Below, piece by piece: positions 6,983 to 12,329 of a stretch of DNA of 35,821 nucleotides (the stretch's first letter is position 1; every line of letters starts with the position of its first letter). Source of the stretch: Dehalococcoidia bacterium (GTDB taxonomy: Bacteria > Chloroflexota > Dehalococcoidia > UBA6926); assembly GCA_009841045.1 (NCBI GenBank), contig VXMO01000022.1, positions 1 through 35,821 of the forward strand, given 5' to 3'. The position numbers and the translations under genes were made by a program. The notes under the pieces are model-generated. The model did not search any database, was not told the origin of the DNA, and was given only the letters and a program-made list of their open reading frames with translations.

Positions 6983-7058
6983 TACACTGTCTGGACTTTG
7001 GGGTATCCTGTTCGGCCAACCTGGCCCCGCATAGCCCACTCTCAGATTGGAGTTTCAT

Positions 7059-7550
7059 ATGACGACGGACAGCGCATCTACAGACAACAGCGTGTACATC
7101 AGCGCCGAGGGACTGGAGCGGATGAAGGAGGAGCTTGAAGAGCTTCGCAACATCCGCAGGCCTGAGGTTGCGGAGATGATCCAACGCGCCAAGGAGCTTG
7201 GTGACATTACGGACAGCGCCCAGTACGACGCCGCGAAGAACGAGCAGGCCTTTCTCGAAGGCCGCATTCGTCAGCTTGAGGACAACGTTCGGCGCGCCGT
7301 CATCATCGAAGATCAGGGTGATCAGGCCGATGGGCAGGTTCGCGTTGGATCAACCGTTGTCGTTGTCGATTCTGACGGCCAGGAGGAACGATGGACCATC
7401 GTTGGCCGCGCAGAGGCGGATGCCGCAAGCGGACGGATCTCTAATGAATCGCCGGTTGGGAGCGCTCTAATCGGCAAGAAGAAGGGCGATACGTTCGAGA
7501 TCGATATTCCTGCCGGCAAGCTCGGTTTCACGGTCTCCGCGGTGGAGTAG
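7059..7550 (+). CDS. greA: Transcription elongation factor GreA
   Basis: Binds the secondary channel of RNA polymerase and stimulates cleavage of backtracked RNA. The 163-residue protein has the two GreA parts: an N-terminal antiparallel coiled coil (about residues 12-85, LERMKEELEELRNIRRPEV...) and a C-terminal FKBP-like domain (about 90-163, with RISNESPVGSALIGKKKGD). At the coiled-coil tip the family motif GDL-x-ENAEY appears as GDITDSAQY, so the first acidic residue is kept and the second is Asp rather than Glu. The ATG at 7059 is chosen because GGAG sits six bases upstream; the TTG at 7047 has no such signal. It is followed 25 bp later by a close paralog. Confidence 0.93.
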   Translation: MTTDSASTDNSVYISAEGLERMKEELEELRNIRRPEVAEMIQRAKELGDITDSAQYDAAKNEQAFLEGRIRQLEDNVRRAVIIEDQGDQADGQVRVGSTVVVVDSDGQEERWTIVGRAEADAASGRISNESPVGSALIGKKKGDTFEIDIPAGKLGFTVSAVE

Positions 7551-7575: not shown

Positions 7576-8037
7576 ATGTACGTCAGTGTCGAAGGATTGG
7601 AGCGTATCAAGAATGAACTTGAGGAGCTCCGAAATGTGCGCCGACCAGAAGTTGCAGAACTGATTCGGCGCGCAAGAGAGATTGGCGATATTACTGACGA
7701 CAGCGGTCAATATGAAGCTGCCAAAGATGCGCAAATGTTTCTTGAGGGTCGCATTCGCCAGCTTGAGGACAGCGTGCGCCGCGCCGTCATTATCGAAGAT
7801 CAGAGTAATCAAGCTGATGGCCGGGTTCGTATCGGATCGACCGTCGTTGTAATCGATTCTGAGGGTCTAGAGGAACGCTGGACGATCGTTGGACAAGCAG
7901 AGGCGGATGCTGCACACGGCCGCATCTCCAATGAATCACCAGTTGGCGGAGCACTAGTTGGTAAGGAGGTCGGAGATAGCGTCCAGATTGAGACACCCCT
8001 AGGCACACAGACCTTTACTGTTTCGGTCGTGGATTAA
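7576..8037 (+). CDS. Second GreA-family factor (tandem paralog)
   Basis: A 153-residue GreA-type protein, very similar to the preceding gene throughout both the coiled coil and the FKBP-like domain (shared RISNESPVG block and ERWTIVG strand). It lacks the polar N-terminal extension of the first copy. At the loop tip it reads GDITDDSGQY where the neighbour has GDITDSAQY, so one residue is inserted just after the second acidic position, which may alter catalytic geometry. Third-codon positions look more AT-rich than in the first copy, hinting at divergence or separate acquisition. ATG 7576 follows GGCGGA six bases upstream. It probably shares a transcript with greA. It may be a functional isoform or a factor that binds polymerase without the same cleavage activity; the second is inference. 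Confidence 0.88.
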   Translation: MYVSVEGLERIKNELEELRNVRRPEVAELIRRAREIGDITDDSGQYEAAKDAQMFLEGRIRQLEDSVRRAVIIEDQSNQADGRVRIGSTVVVIDSEGLEERWTIVGQAEADAAHGRISNESPVGGALVGKEVGDSVQIETPLGTQTFTVSVVD

Positions 8038-8190
8038 CTCTCTTCGCGCACTCATATTCGCCATGGCTTGGCATGCACTGACTGATTCAGAAACAGGGAA
8101 CATCGATCTCAAGTTAGTTGAAGACTGAGGCTATCCAGCAAAATCTGTTTCGGTAACCTCTGCAATACGGTCCGTTCGGGAGATGGGAAA

Positions 8191-9207
8191 ATGGTGGATC
8201 CTAGCAGACTAATCACGTGTTCTATCTGGCCATCGCATCAAGCGGTAGGCGACAAGGATGCCCTCTCTGGAAGCATCTTTGTGGAGTCTTCTTTGCGCGG
8301 GGTTGGATCGTACAAGATTCACGAGGACGTTGCTCATCGCTTGCAAAGGCAGGACGTGGACGGTAGATTGCGGGCACGCTTGACCACTTTCGTTCTGGAT
8401 CAAAACCGTCTAGGAGAGAAGTGGCCTGAGATTAACGAGAGCGTTCTCGAGCATGTCGGCCAGCGCCGAGATCTCCCCGCCCATGAGAGGGCAGATAGGC
8501 TCCTGAGGTTCTTTGCAGATTCGACAACGGCTGTTGGTGATGTGTTGGATATCGGGGACTGGGAAGATAATGGGCTCTCCCGTGGCTGGCAAGTCCATCT
8601 ACGTCCTGGGTCTTGGGCGACCCTCTCGTGGTCAGAGTCACTAACTTGGGACGAGGCCTTGTTTCTCATCGACTATCTTGTAGAACAAAAGTGGGTCAAG
8701 TTAGGCGCGTCAGACGATCTAGCGGCAGAGATCAAGGTTACAGTTGAAGGCTTTCGTCGAGTGGCAGCCTCAGTGACGGTACCTGATGCAAATCAGGGAT
8801 TCGTTGCGATGTGGTTCGACTCCAGCATGAACAGTGTCTTCGATGATGGCATTCTGCCTGCCATCGAGAGTGCTGGATACACAGTAATGCGGATTGACCG
8901 CAAGCCCGACGTAGGCAAGATAGATGACGAAACAATTGCCGAAATTCGGCGCTCTCGATTTGTAGTTGCGGACTTCACCCAAGGCGACGATGGAGCAAGG
9001 GGTAGCGTCTACTTTGAAGCAGGGTTCGCTGAAGGATTAGGAATACCTGTCATATACACTTGCCGCAGCGACATGGTTGACAAGCTTCATTTCGACACGC
9101 GTCAGTACGCTCACATTGTTTGGGACAACCCTGAGGAACTGTCTCAAATGCTGAAAGACAGAATCAATGCTCGCATAGTGCCTATTCTGCCTGCGACATC
9201 ACTGTGA
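8191..9207 (+). CDS. Nucleoside 2-deoxyribosyltransferase-like domain protein, accessory
   Basis: 338 residues in three parts. Residues 1-45 look like a degenerate zinc ribbon: relatives I know have CxxC pairs before a G-x-Y-x-I motif, and here GSYKI (39-43) remains but the cysteines are mostly gone. Residues 95-192 are helical with a winged-helix-like end (FLIDYLVEQKWV...VTVEGFRRV). Residues 203-330 are a Rossmann-like deoxyribosyltransferase-type domain: FVAMWFD (204-210), KIDDETIAEIRRSRFVVADF (243-262), YFEAGFAEGLGIP (274-286) with the likely catalytic Glu276, and HFDTRQY (300-306). The family is widespread and strongly conserved in this last block but, to my knowledge, uncharacterised; related domains occur as nucleotide-acting effectors in bacterial conflict systems. 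Codon use is visibly more AT-rich than in neighbours, suggesting transfer. ATG 8191 follows GGGAG eight bases upstream. Confidence 0.8.
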   Translation: MVDPSRLITCSIWPSHQAVGDKDALSGSIFVESSLRGVGSYKIHEDVAHRLQRQDVDGRLRARLTTFVLDQNRLGEKWPEINESVLEHVGQRRDLPAHERADRLLRFFADSTTAVGDVLDIGDWEDNGLSRGWQVHLRPGSWATLSWSESLTWDEALFLIDYLVEQKWVKLGASDDLAAEIKVTVEGFRRVAASVTVPDANQGFVAMWFDSSMNSVFDDGILPAIESAGYTVMRIDRKPDVGKIDDETIAEIRRSRFVVADFTQGDDGARGSVYFEAGFAEGLGIPVIYTCRSDMVDKLHFDTRQYAHIVWDNPEELSQMLKDRINARIVPILPATSL

Positions 9208-9241: not shown

Positions 9242-10432
9242 CTAGACCTGCCCGGATAGCTGGAGTTGCTTGCCCTCGGTCTTGATGGCGGGGGCGACAA
9301 TCATCTCCGCCTGCTGCAGATCACGGATGGTTTCCGCGCCGCACATGCCCATCGCCGTGTGGATAGCCCCAACAAGGTTCTCCGTGCCGTCCGTGCGGTC
9401 AGTAGGGCCGAACAGCAGACGCTCAAGCGTCGCGTGGACGCCAACCTTCACCCGAGTGCCGCGCGGCAGTGCGGGATGCGGCGTCGCCATTCCCCAGTGA
9501 TAGCCCTTGCCGGGAGCCTCCTTCGCACTTGCAAAGATTGATCCGAGCATAACGGCGTCCGCGCCTGAGACGAGCGCCTTGCACAGGTCGCCTCCCGAGC
9601 GGATGCCGCCGTCCGTGATGATGGGAACGTATCGGCCGGTGCGCCGGTGGTATTCATTACGCGCGGCAGCCGTCTCAATGGTCGCAGTGACTTGCGGCAC
9701 ACCAATGCCGAGCACCTCACGGCTTGTGCATGCCGCGCCGGGGCCGACACCGACCAGGATGCCAGCCACACCCGTTTGCAGCAGCTCCATCGTCTGGTGA
9801 TAGCCAACGACGTTGCCAACGATGACGGGGATGGGAATGCGACCAACGAGGTCGTCGAAATGCAGCCCGACCGGGCTCGATGAGATGTGTCGCGCAGTCG
9901 TGACGGTCGACTGGCAGACATAGTAGTCCGCGCCCGCCTCGACGACTGTTCCGATGAACCGCTTGGTATTGGCAGGGGTGGCGGCGACGGCGACAGTCGC
10001 GCCGAGAGCCTTCATCTTCTCGATGGTCGCGCCGACATATTCTTCCTTGAGGGGGGCGGAATAGATGCGCTGCAGGGTGGCCGTGACGGAATCTGCGGGA
10101 GCCTCAACCACCTCCTGCAGGACCTCTTCGGGGTTGGGGTAGCGCCCGTGGACGCCCTCAAGGTTGAGCACGGCAAGCCCGCCATAACGTGTGTACGTGG
10201 CGGCAAAACCGGGGTCAACCACACCGTCCATAGCCGCCGCCAGTATCGGCAAGTCGAATATGCGATCCCCCATTGCGAACCTGATGTCGGTTTGCTCCGG
10301 GTTCAACGTGACCCGACCTGGTACGATGGCCACCTCTTCAAAGCCATAGGCGCGTCGCAACGGCTTGAACTCCGGCACTTCGTCTTCGATACCAAAGTCC
10401 ACTCCCCGCTCAGCGATTTCCGTTGCGACCAT
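9242..10432 (-). CDS. guaB3: GuaB3 family IMP dehydrogenase-related protein
   Basis: A 396-residue TIM-barrel enzyme of the IMPDH/GMP reductase superfamily. Hallmarks are AAAMDGVVDP (about 65-74), VGNVVG (205-210), the loop GPGAACTSREVLGIGVPQ with the nucleophilic Cys235, and TDGGIRSGGDLCKALVSGAD (273-292) for phosphate binding. The CBS pair of classical GuaB is absent, and length and motifs match GuaB3, found in Actinobacteria, Cyanobacteria and Chloroflexota. It is expected to act on IMP/XMP in guanine nucleotide synthesis; the exact reaction in this organism is not shown by sequence. ATG 10432 is preceded by a G-rich ribosome binding site (AAGGGGGTAGG). It converges on the accessory gene to its left, and two hairpins separate it from the CoA-transferase genes upstream. 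Confidence 0.9.
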   Translation of the reverse strand: MVATEIAERGVDFGIEDEVPEFKPLRRAYGFEEVAIVPGRVTLNPEQTDIRFAMGDRIFDLPILAAAMDGVVDPGFAATYTRYGGLAVLNLEGVHGRYPNPEEVLQEVVEAPADSVTATLQRIYSAPLKEEYVGATIEKMKALGATVAVAATPANTKRFIGTVVEAGADYYVCQSTVTTARHISSSPVGLHFDDLVGRIPIPVIVGNVVGYHQTMELLQTGVAGILVGVGPGAACTSREVLGIGVPQVTATIETAAARNEYHRRTGRYVPIITDGGIRSGGDLCKALVSGADAVMLGSIFASAKEAPGKGYHWGMATPHPALPRGTRVKVGVHATLERLLFGPTDRTDGTENLVGAIHTAMGMCGAETIRDLQQAEMIVAPAIKTEGKQLQLSGQV

Positions 10433-10617: not shown

Positions 10618-11361
10618 TTATCCGCCAAATCCCCCTGACGCGACGAAGCCCGGATATTCACCGTCAACGCGGTCCTTGATGGAGCCGCGGAGCAGCGCCA
10701 GTTGCTCCGGTGTTGGAGCAGTTGTCACCGGCACCTCGTCGGGGATAAGAATCTCGAACCCGGTGTTTTCCTTCACCTCATCGACAGTCACGCCGGGGTG
10801 AACGGACTCGAGCAGGAATCTCTTTTGATCCTTCTCATACATCATCACGCAGATGTTGGTGATGAGCATGTGAGGGCCGCCCGGGCGCTCCACACGCTCT
10901 CCACTGGATCCGGCGGACGTGATGAAATCAACGTTCTCCACAAAGACGCGCGGCGTGTGCTCCAAACGGAAAAGGATGATGCGATTCGTCATGAAGTAGA
11001 GCATTCCGGAACCGGCCGCGCCGGGAAGGCGCACGTCCGGCCTGTCGTGGTCACCAATTGTCGTGAGGTTGATATTGCCGTGGCCATCAATCTGCGCGCC
11101 GCCGAGAAAGAAGATGTCCAGCCTGCCGCGTTGAGCGAGGTCGAAAACCTCCTTGCCGCTGATGAGGTTGAGTTCAGGGTTAGACGCGCCGATGGGGACA
11201 TAAATCATGTCCGGCGCGTGCGTCTCCTGTGCCAGGAGAACGCCCGCCATGGGCACAGGCGATGCCGCGCCGGAACTGACGTACGTGTCGTCTCGAACCT
11301 CCCGCGAAATGCGGGTGGCCATCAACTCGCCGATGGTGTAGTCGTCCGACTGGAACGGCAT
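10618..11361 (-). CDS. Class I CoA-transferase, beta subunit (GctB/IpdB-like)
   Basis: A 247-residue subunit of a two-component family I CoA-transferase, resembling glutaconate CoA-transferase subunit B and the IpdB side of the IpdAB ring-opening hydrolase. Visible marks are IGELMATRISREV at the start, VSSGAASPVPMAGVLLAQ, FDLAQRGRLDIFFLGGAQID and GNINLTTIGD, all typical of the fold. It should pair with the alpha subunit encoded just upstream (24 bp gap), forming an enzyme that moves CoA between carboxylic acids or hydrolyses a CoA thioester. The substrate is not predictable; steroid or aromatic degradation is possible for this branch. No strong ribosome binding site precedes the ATG at 11361, so translational coupling to the alpha gene is likely. 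The alpha gene carries an in-frame TGA, so the complex may be defective. Confidence 0.85.
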   Translation of the reverse strand: MPFQSDDYTIGELMATRISREVRDDTYVSSGAASPVPMAGVLLAQETHAPDMIYVPIGASNPELNLISGKEVFDLAQRGRLDIFFLGGAQIDGHGNINLTTIGDHDRPDVRLPGAAGSGMLYFMTNRIILFRLEHTPRVFVENVDFITSAGSSGERVERPGGPHMLITNICVMMYEKDQKRFLLESVHPGVTVDEVKENTGFEILIPDEVPVTTAPTPEQLALLRGSIKDRVDGEYPGFVASGGFGG

Positions 11362-11385
11362 CGGGCCGGTTGTCGCTGAACGCGG

Positions 11386-12234
11386 CTAGGCGGGAACGGC
11401 GACGCGCGTCACCATCTCGCGGTATTCGTCCTCCGTATGGCCGCGCACGAACTCATTGAGGTACGCGTTGAAACCGTCCGCGGTCTTTGAGGACTCCATG
11501 TACCGCCCAAAGTGGTCATTGTCCGCCTCGTAGTACGGCTTCATGCCACCGGGGTGCGAGCCTCGCGGAGTGTGAATGACGAGGCTGACGAACGGCCACG
11601 GGATGAGGTGACCGCCACGCGCATCTTCGGAGAGGTCATAGTCGACGATCTCCTCAACCGTCACGAGCACCTTGTCGCTCGCCTGCGCCACCATGCGGTC
11701 CTCGTAGCCGGGCGCGAGGACGTTGCCGTTCTGATCCGCCTTGAAGGCGTGAATCATGGCGATGTCCGGGCGAATGGCCGGTACGAGGAGGATGTCATGG
11801 CCCTCGTTGTAAGGGTCTTCGATGATCTTCCAGTTTGGATGGAGATTGACAAGGTCAGTACCAATCACGCCGCGTGACGGGATGAACGGCACACCGTTGG
11901 CTCCAGCCTGGAGCCCTGTGAGTGTGACGGGTCAGGTGCTGTCCAGCGCGGCGATCCCTCCCTCTTTGGCCACGCGGCGGTAGTTGGGCGCAAATCCGCG
12001 CTCGCCGAACGTGAGGGAGCCGGTGTCAATAGCCTTGACGGCGCCTGCGCCGATAAGCATATCGCCCTGGATGCCGCCCGCGGGCGTAAAGACGAGGGTC
12101 AGGTCCTTGATGCCCCGCCGTACAATCTCCCGTGTCAGCGCCATGGAGGAGCGCTCATTCCCACCGGTGGTGGCGATAAGCATCCCGTCCTTGAATCGAT
12201 TTCCTGCCTCTTCAATGCTGACGATTCTCGTCAT
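11386..12234 (-). pseudogene. Class I CoA-transferase alpha subunit with in-frame TGA
   Basis: The two halves of an alpha subunit lie in one reading frame. The first 100 codons (12234-11935) give the usual start MTRIVSIEEAGNRFKDGM with FTPAGGIQGDMLIGAGAVKA. A TGA follows at 11932-11934, and then the frame continues without a shift through LTGLQAGANGVPFIPSRG to a normal C-terminus at 11386. Read through, the product would be about 282 residues, right for the family. The ATG at 12234 has a perfect GGGAGG site. The second half has no ribosome binding site and its only early start codon is a GTG inside a conserved motif, so it is not an independent gene. Options: nonsense mutation, base-calling error, leaky UGAC stop, or recoding. 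I treat it as interrupted, with the first or second most likely. Confidence 0.75.
11899..11915 (-). other. Hairpin 23 nt after the in-frame TGA
   Basis: On the minus strand GGCTCCA-GGC-TGGAGCC forms a perfect 7-bp stem with a 3-base loop beginning with G. The loop starts 24 bases past the TGA at 11932-11934. This spacing falls within what is described for bacterial SECIS elements, but the sequence also encodes the conserved LQAGA, so the hairpin may be coincidental. Confidence 0.35.
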
Positions 12235-12329
12235 GACACATCCTCCCGCTTGAGGGACGCCTCTGAGGGCATCTCTTCATACAAAGTGACGCTACGCCGA
12301 ACAGGGTGAAAGGTCAAGTAGAGAAGAGG

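Follow-up and report, generated by a model that had tools for sequence, protein, structure and literature searches.

A probable selenoprotein with a CoA-transferase fold in a Dehalococcoidia bacterium

In a stretch of 35,821 nucleotides from a Dehalococcoidia bacterium of the phylum Chloroflexota (contig VXMO01000022.1 of assembly GCA_009841045.1, hereafter the window) we examined a gene that is interrupted by an in-frame UGA and whose predicted product, with the class I coenzyme A (CoA) transferase fold, would serve as alpha subunit in a two-subunit enzyme of the GctAB, IpdAB and AibAB branch. The exchange of UGA and Cys at a single codon among the relatives, a conserved hairpin downstream of it and the presence of the selenocysteine (Sec) machinery in the same genome make it very probable that this subunit is a selenoprotein. 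Read-through of the UGA is, judged from these comparisons, nearly certain. Our confidence is only slightly lower that the hairpin is the selenocysteine insertion sequence (SECIS) of the gene, and a shade lower again for the explanation as a whole (Sec at the UGA, a SECIS hairpin and an alpha subunit of CoA-transferase fold). In the proposed mechanism SelB, loaded with Sec-tRNA, would bind the hairpin in the mRNA beside the ribosome, and the UGA would be decoded as Sec. The features concerned are the following.

11386-12234, minus strand: alpha-subunit gene of 282 residues, with ATG at 12234, predicted Sec codon 101 and stop TAG; a CoA_trans (PF01144) protein like the glutaconate CoA-transferase alpha subunit and IpdA
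11932-11934, minus strand: in-frame UGA, codon 101; 26 loci share it, and three genes of their clade have Cys instead
11899-11915, minus strand: putative bacterial SECIS hairpin with a 7-bp stem and loop GGC, judged by folding, a synonymous-codon null and covariation in relatives
11887-11929, minus strand: outer stem (6 + 2 pairs) around the hairpin, given by the folding program; also predicted in two congeners, but not for most other UGA loci

The UGA at codon 101 and the machinery to decode it

The relatives were collected from 393 genomes of the class and 400 of the phylum, both draws from larger groups, with at most six candidates scored per genome. Among the matches listed, the 27 best places in the class genomes scored at least 326 bits and the next below 260; 25 of these 27 carry an in-frame TGA, while the two without it both have TGC. 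In one of the 25 (G010) an additional TAG beside the in-frame TGA is the end stop of the gene. The phylum genomes (E up to 1e-80) yielded two further genes outside the class, one with UGA (G514) and one with TGC (G736). The UGA falls in one alignment column in all 26 UGA loci, from 26 genomes, every internal stop being TGA, and its context is D-x-T-U-P or D-x-T-U-G in all of these loci but L061 and L079. Three named relatives (95, 94 and 66% identical, from metagenome-assembled genomes of Chloroflexi or Dehalococcoidia) also have UGA at codon 101. Cys occupies this column in homologues of Paracoccus denitrificans (WP_011750822.1) and Nocardioides sp. JS614 (WP_011751522.1), the latter a distant one with a Cys-Cys pair, and a Natronomonas homologue has Ser there via a gapped alignment. 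More distant members of the class show Gly, Glu or Asn, with one Cys (L038) and two gaps, and among phage records a single distant match (27.8%) was found.

In a tree of 48 rows the 26 UGA rows and three Cys rows form a single clade (support 100/99), with the Gly and Glu rows in clades of their own outside it and the fourth Cys row, L038, outside it on a long branch. Long branches also carry L030 and L079. The tree omits matches of less than about 200 query residues, identical proteins and, by hand, the second copies L028, L029, L031, L033, L034 and L058 as well as L035 (a Gly row, for which there is no replacement); L018-L020 duplicate L022-L024, and each gene was counted once. The UGA label requires four changes, for which a single gain and three later replacements by Cys could account, and well-supported branches force three. 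On this tree Sec could be the ancestral state of the enzyme, given up for Cys three times. In the usual account Sec arises from Cys, the reverse of this order.

The genome of the window (1.95 Mb in 63 contigs, about 91% complete) contains selA (539.9 bits), selB (313.7 bits) and selD (391.8 bits), all above their cut-offs, and a tRNA-Sec with anticodon tca. Its selD (G000:C19:130046-130969, L102) has one in-frame TGA itself, within the motif SHCAG-U-AAKL, and the bases past it fold into a structure that includes an 8-bp stem with the 3-base loop GUG, beginning 34 bases past this UGA. SelD figures among the listed selenoproteins (PMC13188914). TGA is the terminal stop in 3 of the 14 window genes checked (named, e.g. 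proB and proA, from reading their translations and without a search), and it remains a normal stop in this genome. Across the class, selA was found in 23 of the 25 UGA genomes versus 231 of the 368 others (Fisher P = 0.002) and tRNA-Sec in 22 of the 25, in a survey that scored at most 108 candidates per genome. Both selB and selD are also present in G514, which carries the UGA gene from outside the class. The idea that G028, which carries a Cys gene, is a Sec-less genome proved wrong: only selA was not found, and selB, selD with UGA and tRNA-Sec are present.

Some points count against the selenoprotein in this comparison. Three of the 25 UGA genomes in the class yielded no tRNA-Sec (G011, G309 and G358, all with selA and selB), and in another two (G001 and G003) no selA was found and no selB above its cut-off, although both do have tRNA-Sec and a selD with UGA. 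The UGA genomes are moreover mostly in many contigs and are probably metagenome assemblies.

A preliminary description of this DNA had put forward an unreported selenoprotein as its bold reading, and had pointed to the Sec genes and to the residue found in orthologs as the places to look. All of selA, selB, selC (as the tRNA-Sec) and selD turned up, near homologues have either UGA or Cys at this codon, and the reading is supported by the UGA/Cys exchange, the conserved hairpin and the Sec machinery.

The hairpin downstream of the UGA

The first base 3' of the UGA is 11931. The 5' arm of the hairpin covers 11915-11909 (bases 17-23 past the UGA), the loop GGC 11908-11906 (bases 24-26) and the 3' arm 11905-11899, all on the minus strand, and all seven pairs are Watson-Crick. 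The geometry given in the preliminary description, a perfect 7-bp stem starting 17 bases past the UGA with a loop that starts after 24 bases and has G in its first positions, is thus correct. Folding of the RNA 11885-11937 gave the hairpin together with the outer stem (11921-11926 with 11890-11895, and 11928-11929 with 11887-11888) at -20.9 kcal/mol, with a z of -1.46 and a stability equalled or surpassed by 14 of 200 shuffles; by folding energy the hairpin is not remarkable. An Rfam search of 11300-12300 gave no match with E < 1. When we scanned both strands of the window for a perfect stem of 7 bp whose loop comprises 3-8 bases, starts 16-38 bases past a TGA and has G at position 1 or 2, such a hairpin followed 14 of the 1,296 TGA triplets, the UGA of the gene included (5 if the loop is held to three bases), so that chance alone could yield one about once per 90 UGAs. 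By itself the hairpin of the window is weak evidence, and the comparison with relatives decides.

At a fixed distance from the UGA, 6-7 contiguous pairs are present in 22 of the 26 UGA loci, and in the three Cys genes of the clade only 3, 3 and 2 of the 7 positions pair, i.e. the hairpin is absent. Redrawing the window gene with its amino acids fixed and its own codon usage produced a 7-bp stem at this place in 1 of 2,000 draws (P 0.0005), and the same null was exceeded with P < 0.05 in 21 of the 26 UGA genes. The alignment of the hairpin region (A2, 24 distinct rows that are related by descent) shows pairing in 93.5% of the cells, a share that drops to 41.7% or less once the partner is slid, with 21 cells changed on both sides; none of 500 shuffles attained the pairing fraction, the number of both-side-changed cells or the covariation score. 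In 20 of the 24 rows column 36, a third codon position, forms a UA, GC, UG or CG pair with column 20. Relatives that encode other residues in the arm (MIQAGS, MVQAGS) retain the stem.

Several observations weigh against the hairpin as a conserved element. Among the UGA loci the stem of L055 has five pairs, L061 and L074 need loops of five and four bases for a similar stem and that of L079 is poor, while in the more distant Cys gene L038 six of the seven positions pair, with the closing pair broken. In A2 two counts, of doubly changed pairs (2; mean of the shuffles 2.0) and of further pair types (6; mean of the shuffles 5.7), do not rise above the shuffles, a slide of +3 retains a score of 0.134, and the column pair 22-34 reflects an amino-acid change common to clades (Leu together with Ala, and Ile or Val together with Ser). 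In view of this amino-acid change and of the shared ancestry of the rows, we put most weight on the codon null and on column 36.

The enzyme and the role of residue 101

Both subunits match CoA_trans (PF01144; 54.9 and 79.5 bits, cut-off 23), the second being encoded directly beside the alpha gene.

10618-11361, minus strand: beta subunit (CoA_trans), adjoining the alpha gene, with Gly at the column of the GctB catalytic glutamate, where the alignment is unsure by 1-2 residues

The nearest solved relatives of the alpha subunit are glutaconate CoA-transferase, IpdA and AibA. An AlphaFold2 model of it (predicted local distance difference test, pLDDT, 88.5) has IpdA as its best structural match (Z 33 over 272-273 residues, 26-27% identity), followed by AibA and GctA with Z 31-32. 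Alignments by phmmer and by profile place Sec101 on a residue that is E in the IpdA structures 6co6 and 6co9 and A in 6coj, the title of which (E105A COCHEA-CoA complex) is the source for the mutation of Glu105. In the classical class I CoA-transferases a glutamate stands in the beta subunit (Glu54 in GctB), a place taken by Gly57 in IpdB (both from PMC5380842) and by Cys56 in AibB (PMC7756340). In the corresponding column of 12 beta subunits (alignment A3) we observed Gly in nine, including that of the window, Asp in one (L087) and Glu in two, i.e. L090 beside a Cys gene and L093 beside a UGA gene; the Glu of L090 was set on that of GctB in one alignment, and alignments with AibB shift the site by 1-2 residues towards the N-terminus, to Pro or a gap in the subunit of the window. 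The classical beta glutamate is thus probably missing from the enzyme of the window, and Sec and this glutamate may be present together in at least one UGA relative.

On the strength of its position, Sec101 is probably a catalytic residue. Most likely it would act as the nucleophile and form a thiolase-like acyl-selenoenzyme intermediate in acyl transfer or in C-C cleavage of an acyl-CoA; alternatively, it would be a general acid/base standing in for the glutamate. Attack of Sec101 on a carbonyl is a guess by analogy with general selenolate and thiolase chemistry, and the more specific proposal, in which Sec replaces the active-site glutamate of an IpdAB-like enzyme for covalent, non-redox acyl chemistry via an acyl-selenoester, is possible but doubtful. 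Evidence against this mechanism comes from the beta subunits with Asp and with Glu, and the two that have Glu lower the odds both of a catalytic Sec and of covalent acyl chemistry.

That Sec101 serves in redox reactions or in protection, in place of acyl chemistry, seems unlikely, though it deserves serious consideration: according to PMC13188914 a redox function is presumed for most known selenoproteins, the distant Nocardioides homologue has its Cys-Cys pair and some beta subunits keep Glu at the classical place, but a second conserved Cys is missing from the alignment of alpha subunits (A1), in which, of the columns that are invariant or almost so, only that of residue 101 holds C, and fold and position suggest acyl-CoA chemistry.

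That Sec is inserted while the hairpin is a by-product of the LQAGA codons, with a SECIS located elsewhere or of a different shape, is very unlikely. The arms do lie within conserved codons, the folding energy is ordinary and two of the five covariation measures stand at chance level, but the choice of codons in the arms goes beyond the synonymous null in most UGA genes and column 36, at a third codon position, keeps its partner. The preliminary description had favoured a coincidence with these codons as the default explanation, which is not borne out, given that null and the MIQAGS and MVQAGS relatives that keep the stem.

Still somewhat less credible is a true stop, with two split proteins or with a hairpin that slows or regulates termination while the downstream part restarts at GTG 11892. 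An open reading frame (ORF) finder does cut the gene in two (11932-12234 and 11386-11892) and TGA does terminate ordinary genes of the window, but a split gene would tolerate TAA or TAG as well, whereas only TGA occurs at this codon; the three Cys genes of the clade are unbroken, and the residues directly past the UGA, which would be untranslated in a split gene, are conserved among the relatives.

An error in sequencing or assembly, or a pseudogene in decay, can practically be dismissed, for although the genome is a draft and some relatives are of low completeness, the identical UGA recurs in 26 genomes of several families and purifying selection acts on both sides of it, with a ratio of nonsynonymous to synonymous substitution rates (dN/dS) against two congeners of 0.016 and 0.076 before the UGA and 0.065 and 0.056 after it, and against L054 of about 0.20 and 0.18, respectively (against L055 dS is saturated). 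Equally negligible is a genome-wide reassignment of UGA to Trp or Gly: such codes exist, but TGA ends 3 of the 14 clear genes of the window, the exchange partner in the clade is Cys and selD has its UGA within the SHCAG-U-AAKL motif.

Gene neighbourhood and comparison with known systems

The neighbours of the alpha/beta pair were compared in 21 regions, from which no pathway emerged; the ORF caller used here favours long frames, so that neighbours without confirmation are uncertain.

9242-10432, minus strand: GuaB3-family gene related to IMP dehydrogenase, downstream, of a cluster common to 6 of the 21 regions compared

This GuaB3-like cluster, at most a candidate partner of the enzyme, was confirmed in three of its six regions. 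The gene also occurs within a few kb of the alpha/beta pair in two genomes of another family (L095 and L097). A cluster with class III CoA-transferases lies nearby in 5 of the 21 regions, three of them confirmed by Pfam. In G006 two genes of one cluster (L085:6987-7964 and 8052-9032) adjoin the UGA pair, and the first of them, which was scanned, is fumarylacetoacetate-hydrolase-like, a hint of C-C cleaving chemistry nearby. On plasmid 1 of Paracoccus denitrificans (L110) the Cys homologue stands in a gene run that, by annotation, also encodes another CoA transferase, a 2-hydroxyacid dehydrogenase, an aldolase and a carbohydrate kinase, with an annotated ATP-binding cassette (ABC) importer on the opposite strand to this run. 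Adjoining the UGA gene of L097, an AhpC/TSA protein (L097:1616-2380) matches a family with the motif WAxxUGC weakly (30 bits, cut-off 300) and may be a selenoprotein as well. Elsewhere in the window, 7047-7550 and 7576-8037 on the plus strand are two similar tandem genes, which from their translations we take to be like the GreA transcription factor.

The protein family is absent from the selenoprotein lists examined: neither Table 1 of PMC13188914 (2026; 119 prokaryotic families and subfamilies) nor Table 3 of PMC12013277 lists a CoA-transferase or PF01144, and the passages searched in PMC9312934, PMC2398784, PMC1088965 and PMC5736913 do not name it. Searches of open-access PubMed Central brought up no paper on a Sec-containing CoA-transferase; a groundwater study cited by the 2026 review could include the family. 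Pfam and NCBIfam hold no selenoprotein model for it, and no NCBIfam model (June 2026) attains its cut-off with the full-length protein. Plain ORF calling splits the gene. The alpha subunit would add a selenoprotein family to a fold without one in the inventory of PMC13188914, in members of Chloroflexota that are known mainly from assemblies, and with Sec predicted at a position that holds a carboxylate in a studied relative it offers a test case for selenium in acyl transfer instead of redox chemistry.

The known bacterial selenoproteins have in common a UGA with a hairpin shortly downstream, Cys homologues and the Sec machinery in the genome, traits also found here; their families in Table 1 of PMC13188914 include none with a CoA-transferase or PF01144. 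The glutaconate CoA-transferase of Acidaminococcus (1poi) is the top PDB sequence match for both subunits of the window, but it has the catalytic beta Glu54, which the window probably lacks and 2 of 12 relatives may possess, and its GctA has Gln at the Sec column. AibA/AibB, the 3-methylglutaconyl-CoA decarboxylase (5mzw and others), has the same fold (Z 31.8) turned to other chemistry, with Cys56B in place of the beta glutamate; its cysteine is in the beta subunit, unlike that of the present family, and AibA has Gly at the Sec column. IpdAB, the COCHEA-CoA hydrolase of steroid degraders (6co6, 6co9, 6coj and 6con), likewise consists of two CoA_trans subunits and probably shares with the window the Gly at the classical beta-glutamate column, whereas its alpha subunit IpdA has Glu105 where the present family has Cys or, as we predict, Sec.
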